Below, piece after piece: positions 1 through 60,119 of a stretch of 64,000 nucleotides of DNA (its first letter is position 1; the number at the start of each line of letters is the position of its first letter). The translations under genes were made by a program, and so were the position numbers. The stretch is from an uncultured bacterium (GTDB taxonomy: Bacteria; Patescibacteriota; Saccharimonadia; Saccharimonadales; Saccharimonadaceae), in the NCBI GenBank assembly GCA_902761145.1, contig CACWJA010000002.1, positions 1-64,000 on the forward strand, in the 5' to 3' direction. The notes beneath the pieces were generated by a model that saw nothing but the letters and a program-made list of their open reading frames with translations, was not told where the DNA came from and made no database searches.

Positions 1-3000
1 TAACAGTACTATATAAGAAACATAAGAAACAAGGTAAAGTAACCAAACTAGTACGTACTATAGAACAAACCAAGACAATAATAAAAAGTAAGAAACGTAC
101 TACAGCAGCCCTATCTGCTATTGCCCTCCTAGCCTCAGTAGGTACATTAGCAATACTACTAGCAAATAGTAAGAAAACTAACACCAATGCTATGGAAGGG
201 GGTACAGAACTCACAGTAGACGTAAATAGCGAAGACCTCACCATAGAAGTAGGAGATACGCCAGTCTTTGCATATCTACCAGTAAAACTCACTGTAGAAG
301 AAGCAACAACATCTGGTTACATATTATCTGCCTATGCAGAAGATACTAATCTAGTATCTACCACAGATGAATCTAACATCATTCCTATGGTAGCTATTCC
401 AGAACCAATAGAACCAAATGAAGAAGGTGTAGGCAAAGGATGGAGCCCTGTCACTACTCTCACAGACAACACTTGGGGCCTATCACTAGAACAACCACAA
501 GACCAAAATAGTGAAGTATATACAATACTATCTACAGACCAATCTAACCCTACTATCCTAAAATCTATAGACGACTATTCAGAAACAGAAGAGAACGATA
601 CTACCACCATCTACTATGGTTTCTATATTACTCCAGATACTCCTAAAGGTACCTATGAAGGCAGTAATATCACCTACACTGCACTAACCAACCCACCAGT
701 AGCTACAGTTACTTTTGATGGGAATGGACTATACTTCAACGACAACGAAGAACAAACTACTAATACAATAAAATATATCCCAAATGTGCCTACTTCTCAG
801 ACAGTTGCTTATTCTCATACCCCAAACGTAAATGATGAAGGAGAACAGGATGGCATATATGGTAGAGATCTTAATGCTACAGAAGTATATAGATTTGCAG
901 ATACTGCTACTAAAGTTCATGTAAAAATAGTACAGTCTGGTAATGATAGTACCTGTGGTCCAAATTCAGATGATTACTTCACCTTCTGGTCTGGTGCTCA
1001 TTCAGACTATACTGCAAAAGCAAATTATACTTCTGCAGTAAGAGCCTTTGGTAATACAAATGGCCAATACATGTTTGACAATTACAATAATGTAGAAATC
1101 GACCTAGACGGAACCACTGCTGTAACATTTGCCTACACTACTAACGGCTATCAGTACTGCTCTGGTACTGGCTATGGCTACTACGCCATAATCACTGCAC
1201 AAGATGTGGATGGCAATAATGTCCCAGTAATAGCTAACAATAGTGTCGCGGGGAACTATACTGTGCCAACTACTGAGGCAACACATAGATTCCTTGGCTG
1301 GAGCACAGACAAGAATGCACTAATTGGTGCTTACACTAGTGCAGATGATTTTGAGAACTACGTATTTAACTCTCCAGACGAAAAAGTAACAATGTATGCC
1401 ATCTGGGATCCAATCATAGAAATCACCTACAATGGTAATGGTGCAGATGATACTACTGATATGGCAAACGTAAACCAATACACTACAGACTTTACTACAG
1501 CAGGTAGAACAGTAGATCTACTAGCATCTAACTACCAACGTGCAGGCTATGGTTTCATAGGCTGGAGTGAAGACAAAGATGCATATACCAAACTAGTAAA
1601 TGGTGAAGACGTAACTATCTATGGTCCTAATGAAACTCTTACTATAGGCAGGGAAATGCAACAAAGGATGAGCCAGACAGGTAAACTAGAGCTAAACGCC
1701 ATCTGGGCAGAAGTAGCTAAAGACTCACAAGGTAATGACCTTACCTTCCAAACAGACGATCTCCTCACTACAGAACTAGCTGATGGCACCACACTTGCTA
1801 CCAAACCAAATGGCTATGTAACAGCACTAAAAGACAGTAGAGACAATGAAGTATATGCTGTAGCTAAACTAGCAGATGGTAACTACTGGATGATAGAAAA
1901 CTTGAGATTAGACAATAGCTCAGAACTATCACTACAAAACACTAATAACCCATCACTACCACTCACTAACGACTATAATGCAGGTACCACTAGTAACTTC
2001 CTATCTGCTACAAGTGATAGTTGGTGTACAAGCTCCAACGCCCAGTGCAACAACCAGTCTAAGCTAAATACCAATAATACCACTCTTGCTACCACCTCAC
2101 CAGAATTTAGCCAGAACTATACAAATGGTGCCCATAGTAGTGACTTCAATACAAACCTACATTCCTATGGCAACTATTACAACTGGTACTCTGCTACGGC
2201 TGGTAGAGGCACATATGAGACCGACAGCTACGAAGTAGTAGTAGGCGATATCTGCCCAGCTGGTTGGCAACTACCATATGGTGGTAGTGGTGACACAAAC
2301 AATGGTAAAGGCAATACTAGTGGCGGCTTCTATTACCTAAACAATCTACTAGGCAACAGCTCCAATGCTTGGCGTTCCTTCCCGAATAATTTCATCTATT
2401 CTGGATATTGGTATAATTCGCAAACAAGTAGTCGTGGTAACTATGGTTACTATTGGGCTTCTACTACGAGTGGCACAAGTAGCGCCTATAACTTATATTT
2501 CTACAACAGTTATGTGGGCTCCACGAGTAGTAATAGTAAATATTACGGTAGCTCCGTGCGCTGCGTAGCCCCTATCCAAACCACTATTACCTTTGATGGT
2601 AATGGCAGTACAAGTGGAGAGATGGCGAAACAGAAGATAGGTGCTAATAGTGCAGCGCCGCTAAACCAGAATACCTTCACTAAGAATGATTATGCATTTG
2701 CAAGCTGGAACACAGAAAGAGATGGCAGCGGCACAAGCTATGCTGACAGACAAGATTTTACGGCGGGAGAAGGTATTAATAATGTTACTCTGTATGCACA
2801 GTGGGCAGATTGCGTTCCTAATAAAATCTGCTATAAGTCAAACGGTGCCAATAGTCCCACCACTATGGATCCCCAATCCGCCTCATCTAGCACAGACGTA
2901 GAACTCTGGGCCTCCAACTATAAATACGACACCAATAATGATGGTCACAACGACTATGGCTTTGCTGGCTGGAGTGAAGACAAAGATGCTGCCACTAAAC

Positions 3001-5192
3001 TCACAGACAATAATCCAGATAACAACCCAGTAGTCTATGGTCCTAACCAAACTATCACCACTGGAGACCTAAGCCTTGAGGGCATGAAACTCTACGCTGT
3101 CTGGATAGCTCCCAAGGAAAACACTACCTTCCAAGACTTTATTTGTCCTAATAATACAGACATGCCTAAAGGCACTGTCATAGCCCTAAGAGACAACCGA
3201 GATAACGAAGTCTACACTGTAGCCAAACTAGCAGATGGTAACTGCTGGATGACAGAAAACTTAAGACTAGACAACAATGCCACTATTAACGCCACCAATA
3301 CCAATAACCCCATCAGCTCCTTTACTGTCCTCAGCCCTTCTTCTGATAGTTGGTGTACGAGCACCTCATCATCTTGCTTTAACCAAAGCATATTAAATAG
3401 CAACAATATAGCTAACACTGTCTCACCAATGACTGGAACAGATGCTAACATCTATTCCTATAGCAACTACTACAACTGGTACTCTGCTACAGCTGGTAAT
3501 GGTACTAGAAGTATATCCTCCGGTACAGTAGCAGGCGATCTCTGTCCAGCTGGCTGGCACTTACCGTATGGCGGTAATGAAACTAGCGCAAAAGGTGGTA
3601 ACACTAGTGGTGGCTTCTACTATCTAAATCAGCAGATGGGTGCAGCCACTGGTGCTGCAGGCTCCAACAACTGGCGCTCCTTCCCAAATAACTTCGTCTA
3701 TTCCGGCTATTGGTACGGTTCGTCGGCGTACTATCGTGGCAACTACGGCTACTATTGGTCGTCTACCGCGGGCAATACCAGTAGCGCCTACAATCTGTAC
3801 TTCCACAGCGGCTACGTGAATCCGACGAATAGCAGCGATAAGTACTACGGGCATTCGGTGCGGTGTGTGGCTCCAGTAGGGACTACCATCACCTTTGATG
3901 GCAATGGTAGTACCGGCGGAGAGATGTCTAAACAACGTATAGCACAAAACACTACTGCGCCTTTAAATTCTAATAAATTTACTAAAGACGAATATTTCTT
4001 TGGAAGTTGGAACACAGAAAGAGATGGTAGTGGTACAAGCTATGCGGACGGACAAGACTTTACGGCGGGAGAAGGTAATAACAATATTACGCTTTATACT
4101 CAGTGGGTAGAATGTGCGCCAAACTCTATCTGTTACAAACCTAACGGTGCCAATAGTCCTACCACTATTGATCCCCAATCCGCCTCATCTAACACAGACG
4201 TAGAGCTCTGGGCCTCTAACTACAAATATGACACCAATAATGACGGTCACAACGACTATGGCTTTGCTGGCTGGAGTGAAGATAAAGATGCTGCTGCTAA
4301 ACTAGTAGACAATGACTCAACCAACAACCCAGTAGTCTATGGTCCTAACCAAACCATCACCACTGGAGACCTAAGCCTTGAGGGCATGAAACTCTATGCT
4401 GTCTGGATAGCTCCAGAAGAAAACACTTCCTTCCAAGACTTCACTTGTCCTAATAATACAGATATGCCTATAGGCACTGTCATAGCCCTAAGAGATAATA
4501 GGGATAACGAAGTCTACACTGTAGCCAAGCTAGCAGATGGTAACTGCTGGATGACAGAAAACTTAAGATTAGACAATAATGCCACTATTAACGCCACCAA
4601 TACTAATAGCCCCATCAGCACCTTTACTGCCCTCAGCCCTTCTTCTAATAGTTGGTGTGAAGACAATTCAGAATCTTGTATTAACCAAAGCATGTTAAAC
4701 ACCAACAACATAGCTAAATCTGTCTCACCAATGACCGGAACAGATGCCAACATCTATTCCTATGGCAACTACTACAACTGGTACTCTGCTACAGCTGGTA
4801 ATGGTACTTATAGTACTGGCTGGAATGTCACAGTAGCAGGCGATCTCTGTCCAGCTGGCTGGCACTTACCGTATGGCGGTAATGGAACTAGCGCAAAAGG
4901 TGGTAACACTAGTGGTGGCTTCTACTATCTAAATCAGCAGATGGGTGGCGTTACATCTACGCAAGGCTCTAAGAACTGGCGTTCTTTTCCAAATAACTTC
5001 GTCTATTCCGGCGGCTGGTACGGTTCGTCGGCGGGCTATCGCGGCCGCTACGGCTACTATCGGTCGTCTACTGCGCTCAGTACCGGCTACGCGTACCACC
5101 TGAACTTCGGCAGTGACTACGTGGATCAGGGTACGAGTGGCAACCGTATGAGCTACGCGTACTCTGTTCGCTGTGTGGCTCCAGTAGAGTAG
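1..5192 (+). CDS. Giant FISUMP/InlB-repeat surface adhesin A (5' end outside window)
   Basis: The frame is open from base 3 to the TAG at 5190-5192, and about 60 codons are missing upstream judged by the paralogue at 12144. Bases 3-190 encode a Lys/Arg-rich loop, a hydrophobic helix and a T-N-A motif that could be a signal peptidase I site, so the ATG at 192 is internal. The mature part has a beta-rich domain (192-700), InlB-like (Listeria-Bacteroides) repeats beginning ITFDGNG and ending LYAQW/LYTQW (about 2583-2810 and 3883-4107), and three FISUMP (Fib_succ_major) domains at about 1800-2575, 3150-3870 and 4450-5190. Each FISUMP carries WM.ENLRLDN, CPAGW.LPYGG and SVRCVAP. Modules two and three are a recent near-identical duplication. 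The role inferred is adhesion or ligand binding outside the cell. The ends of modules two and three look hypermutated. Confidence 0.88.
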   Translation, partial: TVLYKKHKKQGKVTKLVRTIEQTKTIIKSKKRTTAALSAIALLASVGTLAILLANSKKTNTNAMEGGTELTVDVNSEDLTIEVGDTPVFAYLPVKLTVEEATTSGYILSAYAEDTNLVSTTDESNIIPMVAIPEPIEPNEEGVGKGWSPVTTLTDNTWGLSLEQPQDQNSEVYTILSTDQSNPTILKSIDDYSETEENDTTTIYYGFYITPDTPKGTYEGSNITYTALTNPPVATVTFDGNGLYFNDNEEQTTNTIKYIPNVPTSQTVAYSHTPNVNDEGEQDGIYGRDLNATEVYRFADTATKVHVKIVQSGNDSTCGPNSDDYFTFWSGAHSDYTAKANYTSAVRAFGNTNGQYMFDNYNNVEIDLDGTTAVTFAYTTNGYQYCSGTGYGYYAIITAQDVDGNNVPVIANNSVAGNYTVPTTEATHRFLGWSTDKNALIGAYTSADDFENYVFNSPDEKVTMYAIWDPIIEITYNGNGADDTTDMANVNQYTTDFTTAGRTVDLLASNYQRAGYGFIGWSEDKDAYTKLVNGEDVTIYGPNETLTIGREMQQRMSQTGKLELNAIWAEVAKDSQGNDLTFQTDDLLTTELADGTTLATKPNGYVTALKDSRDNEVYAVAKLADGNYWMIENLRLDNSSELSLQNTNNPSLPLTNDYNAGTTSNFLSATSDSWCTSSNAQCNNQSKLNTNNTTLATTSPEFSQNYTNGAHSSDFNTNLHSYGNYYNWYSATAGRGTYETDSYEVVVGDICPAGWQLPYGGSGDTNNGKGNTSGGFYYLNNLLGNSSNAWRSFPNNFIYSGYWYNSQTSSRGNYGYYWASTTSGTSSAYNLYFYNSYVGSTSSNSKYYGSSVRCVAPIQTTITFDGNGSTSGEMAKQKIGANSAAPLNQNTFTKNDYAFASWNTERDGSGTSYADRQDFTAGEGINNVTLYAQWADCVPNKICYKSNGANSPTTMDPQSASSSTDVELWASNYKYDTNNDGHNDYGFAGWSEDKDAATKLTDNNPDNNPVVYGPNQTITTGDLSLEGMKLYAVWIAPKENTTFQDFICPNNTDMPKGTVIALRDNRDNEVYTVAKLADGNCWMTENLRLDNNATINATNTNNPISSFTVLSPSSDSWCTSTSSSCFNQSILNSNNIANTVSPMTGTDANIYSYSNYYNWYSATAGNGTRSISSGTVAGDLCPAGWHLPYGGNETSAKGGNTSGGFYYLNQQMGAATGAAGSNNWRSFPNNFVYSGYWYGSSAYYRGNYGYYWSSTAGNTSSAYNLYFHSGYVNPTNSSDKYYGHSVRCVAPVGTTITFDGNGSTGGEMSKQRIAQNTTAPLNSNKFTKDEYFFGSWNTERDGSGTSYADGQDFTAGEGNNNITLYTQWVECAPNSICYKPNGANSPTTIDPQSASSNTDVELWASNYKYDTNNDGHNDYGFAGWSEDKDAAAKLVDNDSTNNPVVYGPNQTITTGDLSLEGMKLYAVWIAPEENTSFQDFTCPNNTDMPIGTVIALRDNRDNEVYTVAKLADGNCWMTENLRLDNNATINATNTNSPISTFTALSPSSNSWCEDNSESCINQSMLNTNNIAKSVSPMTGTDANIYSYGNYYNWYSATAGNGTYSTGWNVTVAGDLCPAGWHLPYGGNGTSAKGGNTSGGFYYLNQQMGGVTSTQGSKNWRSFPNNFVYSGGWYGSSAGYRGRYGYYRSSTALSTGYAYHLNFGSDYVDQGTSGNRMSYAYSVRCVAPVE
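3690..3866 (+). other. Second variable-looking FISUMP C-terminal segment in adhesin A
   Basis: This segment aligns codon for codon with the variable regions at 4995-5174 and 61126-61305 over most of its length, with one codon less near the end. It uses CG-rich codons (TCG, GCG) in a gene that otherwise prefers TCT and GCT. Residues at the same sites differ (Y-Y, N-Y, N, S-S and others). It has more third-position changes than the other two copies share, so it is an older copy or came from a different template. Confidence 0.5.
4995..5174 (+). other. Candidate DGR variable region, 3' end of adhesin A
   Basis: These are the last 60 codons before the invariant CVAPVE tail. Hand alignment to the copy at 61126-61305 gives 38 substitutions: 19 at first, 15 at second and 4 at third codon positions. 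Most changed codons are NNC or NNT, as expected if the template codons were AAC or AAT and only adenines were mutated. The flanks on both sides are nearly identical. The fold class (FISUMP, C-terminal SVRC) and the 3'-terminal position fit known DGR targets. No template repeat or reverse transcriptase was seen in the window. Confidence 0.7.
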
Positions 5193-5461: not shown

Positions 5462-5598
5462 TGGTGGAGCGTATGAGAGACTTAGCTTTGCAAAGCAAAG
5501 CCAATACGTGGGGCGTTAATTCGGAAAATCCAAAATGGATTTTGGATTTTCGCTCTTCTCCTACCATGCGCAAACTCTGCTAGTTCTCGTCTTTACAC
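5462..5598 (-). repeat. M-element copy 2, ends in tRNA-Ala 3' copy
   Basis: Read on the minus strand, this element lies downstream of tRNA-Ala and copy 1. It ends with TCTCATACGCTCCACCA, the same 17 nt that end tRNA-Ala. It carries a perfect 13-bp palindrome at 5524-5551 (GAAAATCC... arms, 2-nt loop), a 7-bp hairpin (GCTTTGC-aaa-GCAAAGC) and a T-arm-like stem (AACT with AGTT). Related copies are at 5649 and 15346. It contains no convincing ORF. Confidence 0.7.
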
Positions 5599-5648
5599 AT
5601 CTCTGATTGATAATAAAAAAAAGGAGCCATGAGCTCTTCTATGATTCT

Positions 5649-5775
5649 TGGTGGAGTGTGCGAGGCAAAAAATCGCAGGGCGTCGCCTCAATAAATCCAA
5701 AATGAATTTTGGATTTATATTTGGACTTCTACTGCGTTCGAACTCTATGAGTTTTCATCTCTTGCGAACTTTATC
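5649..5775 (-). repeat. M-element copy 1, ends in degenerate tRNA-Ala 3' copy
   Basis: This has the same architecture as the copy at 5462: a terminal tRNA 3'-end-like sequence ending CTCCACCA, a GCGA...TCGC hairpin, the GGGCGTCG block, a perfect 13-bp palindrome at 5691-5718 (ATAAATCC... arms) and an AACTC-ata-GAGTT stem that resembles the tRNA-Ala T-arm. It lies between tRNA-Ala and copy 2, so the two copies form a tandem array behind the tRNA. Confidence 0.7.
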
Positions 5776-5781
5776 GTCCAT

Positions 5782-5806
5782 AAAAAATAGCTACCTCTAG
5801 TAGCTT
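5782..5806 (-). terminator. Terminator of tRNA-Ala
   Basis: On the minus strand, AGCTAC and GTAGCT form a 6-bp stem with a short loop, followed by ATTTTTT. It lies 10 nt beyond the CCA end of tRNA-Ala. A-runs and T-runs flank both sides, so it could act in both directions. Confidence 0.7.
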
Positions 5807-5815
5807 TTTCATAAA

Positions 5816-5892
5816 TGGTGGAGCGTATGAGATTCAAACTCATGACCTCTACTATGCCATAGTAGCGCTCTAATCAGCTGAGCTAACGCCCC
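5816..5892 (-). tRNA. tRNA-Ala(GGC)
   Basis: The cloverleaf is complete: 7-bp acceptor (GGGGCGU with ACGCUCC, one G-U pair), GCUC D-stem, CUACU/AGUAG anticodon stem with loop AUGGCAU giving anticodon GGC, T-stem AUGAG/CUCAU and encoded CCA. Two elements ending in copies of its 3' end follow it on the minus strand. Confidence 0.95.
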
Positions 5893-15345: not shown

Positions 15346-15480
15346 TGGTGCTGGAAGTAGGATTAGACTTTTGCTGGCGCAAAAGCCTTCCATCGGGCGT
15401 CGTCTCAACAAATCTAAAATAAATTTTAGATTTGTGCTCGTCTTCTACGATGGGCGAACCTACGGTTCGTGACCTACCTC
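15346..15480 (-). repeat. M-element copy 3, ends in tRNA-Tyr 3' copy
   Basis: On the minus strand this element follows tRNA-Tyr and ends in TCCTACTTCCAGCACCA, the last 17 nt of that tRNA. It contains a 7-bp hairpin (CTTTTGC-tggc-GCAAAAG), GGGCGTCG, a perfect 13-bp palindrome at 15408-15435 (ACAAATCT... arms) and a CGAACC-gta-GGTTCG hairpin resembling the tRNA-Tyr T-arm. Arm bases differ from copies 1 and 2 in compensating pairs. Confidence 0.72.
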
Positions 15481-15528
15481 GCAATATCAGAAAATAAATA
15501 AAGAGCCTATGGTTCTTTCTTTATTTTC

Positions 15529-15613
15529 TGGTGCTGGAAGTAGGACTCGAACCTACGAAGCCCGAAGGCGAGAGATTTACAGTCTCTTGTCATTGCCACT
15601 AGACGATTCCAGC
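15529..15613 (-). tRNA. tRNA-Tyr(GTA)
   Basis: The acceptor stem GCUGGAA/UUCCAGC, the AGAGA/UCUCU anticodon stem with loop CUGUAAA (anticodon GUA), a long variable arm (GCCUUCGGGC) typical of bacterial tRNA-Tyr, T-arm GUAGG/CCUAC and encoded CCA are all present. An AT-rich inverted repeat (AGAAAATAAA...TTTATTTTCT) directly after it probably terminates transcription. Confidence 0.95.
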
Positions 15614-24052: not shown

Positions 24053-24220
24053 TTTTTGTGGCTCCAGAGAGCCACAATGAGTTGGGAACCGGAGCGTCCC
24101 AAGGGGCAAACGGTTCAAGTCCGACTTGCGGCTCCATTTTTATGGCTCCAGAGAGCCATAATGAGTTGGGAACCGGAGTGTCCCAAGGGGCAAACGGTTC
24201 AAGTCCGACTTGTGGCTCCA
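24053..24220 (+). repeat. Two tandem 84-bp units ending in tRNA-Thr 3' copies
   Basis: Each unit holds a hairpin (GTGGCTC-caga-GAGCCAC in the first, ATGGCTC-caga-GAGCCAT in the second: a compensating pair change), a second stem (TTGGGA with TCCCAA), GGGGCAAAC and then GGTTCAAGTCCGACTTG.GGCTCCA, the T-arm to CCA of tRNA-Thr(TGT). The unit boundaries are the CCA ends at 24052, 24136 and 24220. Confidence 0.85.
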
Positions 24221-30364: not shown

Positions 30365-30421
30365 TTTTATGACAAAAGTTAATGGCTCGGACCTTCGGTG
30401 TGAGCCCTGTAGGATCCACCA
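30365..30421 (+). repeat. tRNA-Val 3'-end copy A
   Basis: TTTATGACAAAAGTTAATGG, then CTCGGACCTTCGGTGTGAG, then CCCTGTAGGATCCACCA, the tRNA-Val T-arm to CCA. It is about 93% identical over 57 bp to copy B at 32564 and forms the left boundary of the islet. Confidence 0.85.
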
Positions 30422-59981: not shown

Positions 59982-59983
59982 TG

Positions 59984-60003
59984 TCCCATGTAGGGATTTT
60001 TTT
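59984..60003 (+). terminator. Terminator of tRNA-Gln
   Basis: TCCC-atgta-GGGA followed by TTTTTTT. Confidence 0.75.
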
Positions 60004-60007
60004 ATTC

Positions 60008-60046
60008 GGGACTCGGACCTTCGGTGCGAATCCCTCATCCCCAGCC
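60008..60046 (+). repeat. tRNA-Gln 3'-end copy
   Basis: CTCGGACCTTCGGTGCGA precedes ATCCCTCATCCCCAGCCA, the 3' end of tRNA-Gln. The same 18-nt lead sequence precedes the tRNA-Val 3' copy B at 32564. A terminator (CCTC/GAGG plus TTTTTT, about 60049-60070) follows. Confidence 0.8.
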
Positions 60047-60119
60047 ATGTCCTCTATGAGGGGCTTTTTTATTTGGGACTCAAATTATCATTTTTTTGTG
60101 GTATTGTTAAGATATGAGC

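Follow-up and report, generated by a model that had tools for sequence, protein, structure and literature searches.

A probable gene-less mobile palindromic element at tRNA 3' flanks and in protein genes of Saccharibacteria

What are the two structured, non-coding stretches that follow a tRNA-Ala gene in the small genome of a parasitic Saccharibacteria member, and how do they come to end in that tRNA's own 3' end? The 3' ends of tRNA genes are usual targets of integrases, and integration leaves a 3'-end repeat. The first-pass annotation of this locus accordingly proposed two miniature integrative elements of ~130 bp, whose AT palindromes vary in compensating pairs. The locus is described here on the basis of the window (the whole stretch of 64,000 nucleotides that was analysed), the genome that carries it (872 kb, 98% complete, 44 tRNAs located) and the genomes of its relatives.

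The tRNA-Ala(ggc) gene (5816-5892; ARAGORN and Rfam) lies on the minus strand, so the elements at 5462-5815 stand 3' of it. Two non-coding elements are indeed present, and their sizes from CCA to CCA, 167 bp (proximal unit, 5649-5815) and 187 bp (distal unit, 5462-5648), exceed those first given because each unit also takes in the hairpin stretch after the CCA. The proximal unit comprises this post-CCA hairpin, a core (5673-5743) made of helix 1, an AGGAG/CGAC internal loop and an AT hairpin (81.3 bits with model R1, whose seed holds this copy as A2), and a degenerate tRNA-Ala tail copy (5649-5668, 13/20). The distal unit holds a second core (5506-5575; 82.3 bits, seed member) and ends in a closer copy of the tRNA-Ala 3' end (5462-5481, 18/20 with the last 17 nt exact), so that both tails had been read correctly. 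A third palindrome, at 15408, also stands behind a tRNA, a point missed earlier: it belongs to a 183-bp unit (15346-15528) that follows tRNA-Tyr(gta) (15529-15613), starts with a long hairpin directly 3' of the CCA (15490-15528, by folding), contains a core (15390-15459; 93.3 bits, seed member) and has a tRNA-Tyr tail copy at its far end (15346-15365, 18/20). All of these features are on the minus strand.

Several unit types occur, the core-bearing units of tRNA-Ala and tRNA-Tyr contrasting with short core-less hairpins found on the plus strand of the window. Two core-less units stand in tandem behind tRNA-Thr(tgt) (24053-24220; tail copies at 24117-24136, 20/20, and 24201-24220, 19/20) and one behind tRNA-Val(cac) (30365-30421; tail copy at 30402-30421, 20/20), both loci with an empty-site match in a relative. 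Another follows tRNA-Gln(ctg) (59982-60047; tail copy at 60028-60047, 20/20), for which an empty site was looked for in relatives and none was found. The units of the window measure 57-187 bp and none contains a gene. The tandem 84-bp units of tRNA-Thr(tgt) resemble a unit at tRNA-Pro(cgg) elsewhere in the genome.

The tails are specific to the tRNA that they follow. A copy of the tRNA's own last 20 nt, at 16/20 or better, occurs within 600 nt downstream of 19 of the 44 tRNAs of this genome and within 350 nt of 18, compared with 7 of 1890 mismatched controls (the ends of other tRNAs in the same 350 nt) and 0/44 upstream. The same test gave 2/33 tRNAs in G026, a genus-mate that has no core match, and 3/32 in a genome of another family (G040). 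Among core copies with a measurable tail, 55/72 match the adjacent tRNA at 15/19 or better, against 19/4673 comparisons with other isotypes. An independent terminator or a chance repeat was rejected on these own-tRNA and mismatched-tRNA counts. The repeat spans approximately tRNA positions 58-76, from the T-loop to the CCA, and occurs at no fewer than 14 isotypes; 14 were counted among the tRNA-linked copies, and Asp and Trp are present in the model set. Of 75 tRNA-linked copies, one of them too short for tail measurement, six match at only 9 and one at only 8 of the first 14 tail positions; decay of the tail is therefore real.

Read from the CCA onwards, a full tRNA-linked unit has a long hairpin, then an arm whose sequence complements the 3' strand of the tRNA T-stem, a small GNA-loop hairpin, the core, a second hairpin and the tail copy of tRNA nt ~58-76. 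Across 66 units the post-CCA hairpin, which starts at the first base after the CCA, is uniformly long (median 17 bp), and the mean folding energy after the CCA is -17.8 in these units versus -8.0 behind the 33 tRNAs of G026 and -9.4 behind the 32 of G040. Beyond the T-stem, the element sequence has decayed in many copies. Position relative to the tRNA is strictly polar: in a set of 116 distinct strict-motif copies, part of whose loci were fetched for the presence of a tRNA, 78 have a same-strand tRNA no more than 300 nt upstream (the spacing being 72-90 nt in 63 of these), 37 have no tRNA, one has a tRNA downstream and none has a tRNA on the opposite strand. In loci collected by pattern only (80 of 88 stretches used), 57/82 copies follow a same-strand tRNA at a distance of up to 400 nt, and a contig end cuts several of the remaining 25.

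Comparison of tRNA loci with and without the element showed how the units are placed. The DNA that follows the second CCA aligns with the DNA that directly follows the same tRNA in a relative, beginning with the same few bases. Identity, counted from the base after the CCA, is 87/96 for Arg(ccg), 76/91 for Tyr, 49/57 for Val(cac) and 41/52 for Thr(tgt), all far above shuffles; Gly(tcc), Asp and Arg(cct) give weaker alignments, and Arg(gcg) aligns too but is ambiguous, as its flank is similar, too, to the DNA that directly follows its own tRNA. For 15 of the 19 tRNAs compared, most of them with few or distant relatives, no convincing empty site was found. The tRNA-Tyr insert illustrates the pattern: its 183 bp are absent in genome G018, whose tRNA is immediately followed by the sequence that here comes after the second CCA. 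Since these alignments start at the first base after the CCA, the unit includes the hairpin that starts there. Judged from the aligned flanks, at four or more tRNAs the unit has been inserted precisely behind the CCA.

The core forms a hairpin arm with a 6-bp helix, the conserved internal loop AGGAG/CGAC and a variable AT-rich hairpin. This one structured core, with strong compensatory pairing, is common to the Tyr unit and both Ala units of the window: in an alignment of seven cores (71 columns), 12 of the 18 pairs change on both sides and 92.7% of cells pair, a result reached by 0/500 shuffles, so that the compensating changes noted in the AT palindromes hold well beyond chance. Across 84 distinct cores from named GTDB genomes, in an alignment fitted to the covariance model itself, 93.6% of cells pair, double changes occur in 407 cells and sliding the partners cuts pairing to at most 53%. 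By eye, tandem G-A pairs seem possible in the internal loop, and the U..C that flanks it may be read as co-varying to A..A. Many copies carry GTAG at the foot of the palindrome; it swaps to CAAG jointly with its partner and is therefore part of the fold. The pairing had been taken as a mark of selected structure, of which the strong covariation stands. Core covariation does not separate RNA hairpins from DNA hairpins: helix 1 holds 8 G-U and 6 A-C cells, and the 199 G-U versus 144 A-C cells of hairpin 3 were set aside, its register being crude (410 'other'). In the closing arm, 7 positions follow the copy only, 8 the tRNA only, 8 both and 5 neither, which is no signal; as the arm follows the copy no better than it follows the tRNA, selection on this helix after insertion is unsupported.

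When the covariance model of the core was searched in this genome and its relatives, 15 distinct core places were obtained here (second-strand matches of the palindrome set aside), a copy number among the highest in the genus sample. Matches occur in 27/60 relatives, all of them inside the genus (36 genomes including this one), and in 111/147 genus members; across the order, 40/294 genomes match, in four genera of one family only. The exact core pattern was found in 88 stretches of GTDB genome contigs; among the 80 listed, 79 are titled Candidatus Saccharibacteria and one 'bacterium', many being ruminant-gut MAGs. Further copies near tRNAs do occur in related genomes. Viral contigs, phages and plasmids were searched for the core and no match was found. 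A scan of the window against Rfam returned tRNAs only, a more permissive scan of 14 loci had no credible match, and a literature search, by listings of titles, found no such elements in Saccharibacteria.

The core is not confined to tRNA flanks. Among tRNA-free strict copies, 12/37 are open for at least 80 aa on both sides, compared with 0/79 tRNA-linked copies, and the ten element-bearing protein stretches that were scanned all match host-gene families, including valine-tRNA ligase (ValRS), RecX (twice), MnmA, TopA, QueA, PheT, TrmD and an isoleucine-type ligase. At the sequence level the core lies in frame within these genes, the reading frame staying open throughout, and gene-borne copies occur in both orientations. 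In RecX, two of 32 orthologues, from two genomes, carry the core in opposite orientations in the same hypervariable linker, which in others of these orthologues has about ten residues. This linker, hypervariable across the genus and often Ser/Arg-rich (loci L303-L332), looks like a possible hot spot of palindromic inserts, both those that have this core and those that lack it.

Other tRNA-free copies lie near promoters. The core stands upstream of heat-shock genes, identified by eye as dnaK (L060, L097) and as a clp ATPase (L064, L096), at the -35 region and in or next to CIRCE-like operators, with GTTGAC or GCACTCTTGAC on both sides. Copies from several genomes occur at L065, L067, L070, L072 and L102, in the last four just 5' of a 23S rRNA start placed by eye. 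Genome G013 contains four dispersed, near-identical copies far from any tRNA (L111, L112, L113, L117; L112 has two cores in tandem), whose outer arms TTTTGGTGCTGGAC / GTCCAGCACCAAAA complement the 3' end of a tRNA-Tyr and some of which are flanked by wider fold-back arms, GAAGTCTACA / TGTAGACTTC.

These results argue for a mobile palindromic element without genes as the probable explanation, one that belongs to a Saccharibacteria lineage and has the tRNA 3' flank as one niche, and the main one. The data show insertion, dispersal across the family, paired structure, tails that match the tRNA, and open frames in genes. Three other explanations were weighed. Strong pairing, strict 3' polarity and an order of parts like that of the RtT repeats of Escherichia coli, with the arm GGGGAAGGATGAGAA ... 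AGGTTCGA ... AATCCTTCCCCCACCACCA, would suit a functional RNA, in which a tRNA read-through transcript is processed at the tail to a small RNA or processing decoy and the four-arm fold is selected. Such an RNA would, however, be patchy at a single tRNA (the unit occurs in only a minority of ~30 tRNA-Tyr loci) and separated from that tRNA by a strong hairpin; the region past the T-stem decays in many copies, gene-internal and promoter copies cannot act in this way, helix 1 shows no G-U excess and the RtT covariance model finds 0/36 genomes over its gathering cut-off (best 19.7 bits versus 45). We regard this account as unlikely; the data do not need selection on an RNA product.

The repeat from T-loop to CCA is what integrases leave at tRNA 3' ends, and the tail copies might be the far attachment sites of decayed islands or phages. 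The tRNA 3' end does recur as a direct repeat at both ends of the unit, and no integrase gene lies in it. Uniform spacing, a core conserved over at least 14 isotypes, tandem units behind one tRNA, cores at non-tRNA sites and the negative searches of viral contigs, phages and plasmids do not resemble random remnants, and such scars are highly improbable. The part of the 'miniature integrative element' proposal that survives is insertion right after the CCA and recurrence of the core at many tRNAs and elsewhere; integrase action finds no support, as the units are gene-less, the ~58-76 repeat occurs at 14 or more isotypes and many tRNA-free copies sit in genes and promoters. Replication template switching, in which fold-back copying at post-tRNA hairpins makes tail, inverted arm and tail with no mobile element, predicts the order tail - hairpin - inverted arm - hairpin - tail as well as tRNA-specific arms, and the Thr, Val and Gln units need no core; but the core common to different tRNAs, genes and promoters must come from elsewhere. 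As a full account it is very unlikely, though it may explain arms and tails added onto a mobile core.

If the element is mobile, what moves it? The genome has no Y1 (HUH) transposase, which was missing in 34/35 relatives searched (1/36 in the genus sample), and REP/RAYT was rejected on that ground. Reverse transcriptase domains exceed the cut-off in 22/36 genomes of the genus sample, with up to four per genome; they do not track the element, and since this genome gave no match despite its high copy number, reverse transcriptase was rejected as mover. Searches for phage carriage among viral contigs, phages and plasmids were all negative. We infer that the mover is an enzyme whose substrate is folded single-stranded nucleic acid, either DNA or RNA.

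Most known protein-coding palindromes come from Rickettsia and Wolbachia, with no moving enzyme known to us, and RPE sequence family models exist in NCBIfam; the ten element-bearing protein stretches matched host-gene families only. RtT repeats are known as an enterobacterial oddity. With RtT (tyrT repeats, RF00391) the element shares tandem structured units 3' of a tRNA, a tail from the tRNA's own 3' 19-20 nt, a 5' arm that pairs with the tail and a T-loop motif GGTTCG parted from AATCC by an inserted hairpin region. In the E. coli tyrT/tyrV repeats, tail copies score 19/20 and the arm GGGGAAGGAT pairs with ATCCTTCCCC; the Saccharibacteria unit likewise stands 3' of a tRNA with a ~19-nt 3'-end tail and a pairing 5' arm. 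RtT differs in its core and in having been seen here only behind E. coli tRNA-Tyr, whereas the Saccharibacteria element follows 14 isotypes or more and also enters genes and promoters; RtT had no match at E<=10 in 14 tRNA loci of this genome.

With RPE and in-frame REPs, as the available passages describe them, the element shares palindromic form, a length of ~100-250 bp and both intergenic and in-frame positions in conserved protein genes; open in-frame insertions of this kind are read here from the sequence. In the same passages RPE are reported also in RNA genes (tmRNA, RNase P RNA; PMC2229807) and REPs inside tRNA synthetase genes (PMC3733652). RPE differ in their unrelated sequence and lineage, and the RPE passages mention no tRNA-end copies. 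The passage on RPE/CGTC repeats places CGTC beside an 8-9 bp stem with a CCA-like tail (PMC3733652), whereas GACG of the Saccharibacteria element sits inside the internal loop. REP/RAYT elements have in common with it a short palindrome and, in many copies, GTAG at its foot; here GTAG is part of the fold and the genome lacks a RAYT-type (Y1) gene. With regard to the terminal inverted repeats and target site duplications of MITEs, G013 has long fold-back arms and only some non-tRNA sites carry short duplications (such as GCACTCTTGAC, AACTTCGA and GTTGAC), while the ends vary from site to site. The element may be read as having an RPE-like lifestyle and an RtT-like tRNA architecture while being a recognised member of neither.

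In the mobile element that we favour, the core would land after the CCA of a tRNA and the unit would end in a fresh copy of tRNA nt ~58-76; the tRNA would stay whole on insertion, because T-loop-to-CCA sequence stands on both sides of the unit. The same core would enter protein genes in frame and sites next to promoters. Persistence would come through tolerance at tRNA 3' flanks and in protein loops, and not through host need. The match of arm to tRNA is beyond ordinary target duplication, and we tentatively suggest, as a possibility short of an even chance, that the element rebuilds its ends from the target, tail and complementary arm being copied forwards and backwards (target-templated palindromes). 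If so, the E. coli RtT repeats would have arisen in the same way, and there would be a transposition route that is driven by none of the known enzymes (Y1, reverse transcriptase, integrase). The family described here, independent and from a distant phylum, is present in 111/147 genus-mates and joins RPE-like and RtT-like features; its filled and empty sites allow a comparative search for the insertion rule and for the missing enzyme. Elsewhere in the window, Fib_succ_major domains and List_Bact_rpt repeats occur in a 1666-aa protein encoded at 192-5192, which is probably a surface protein.
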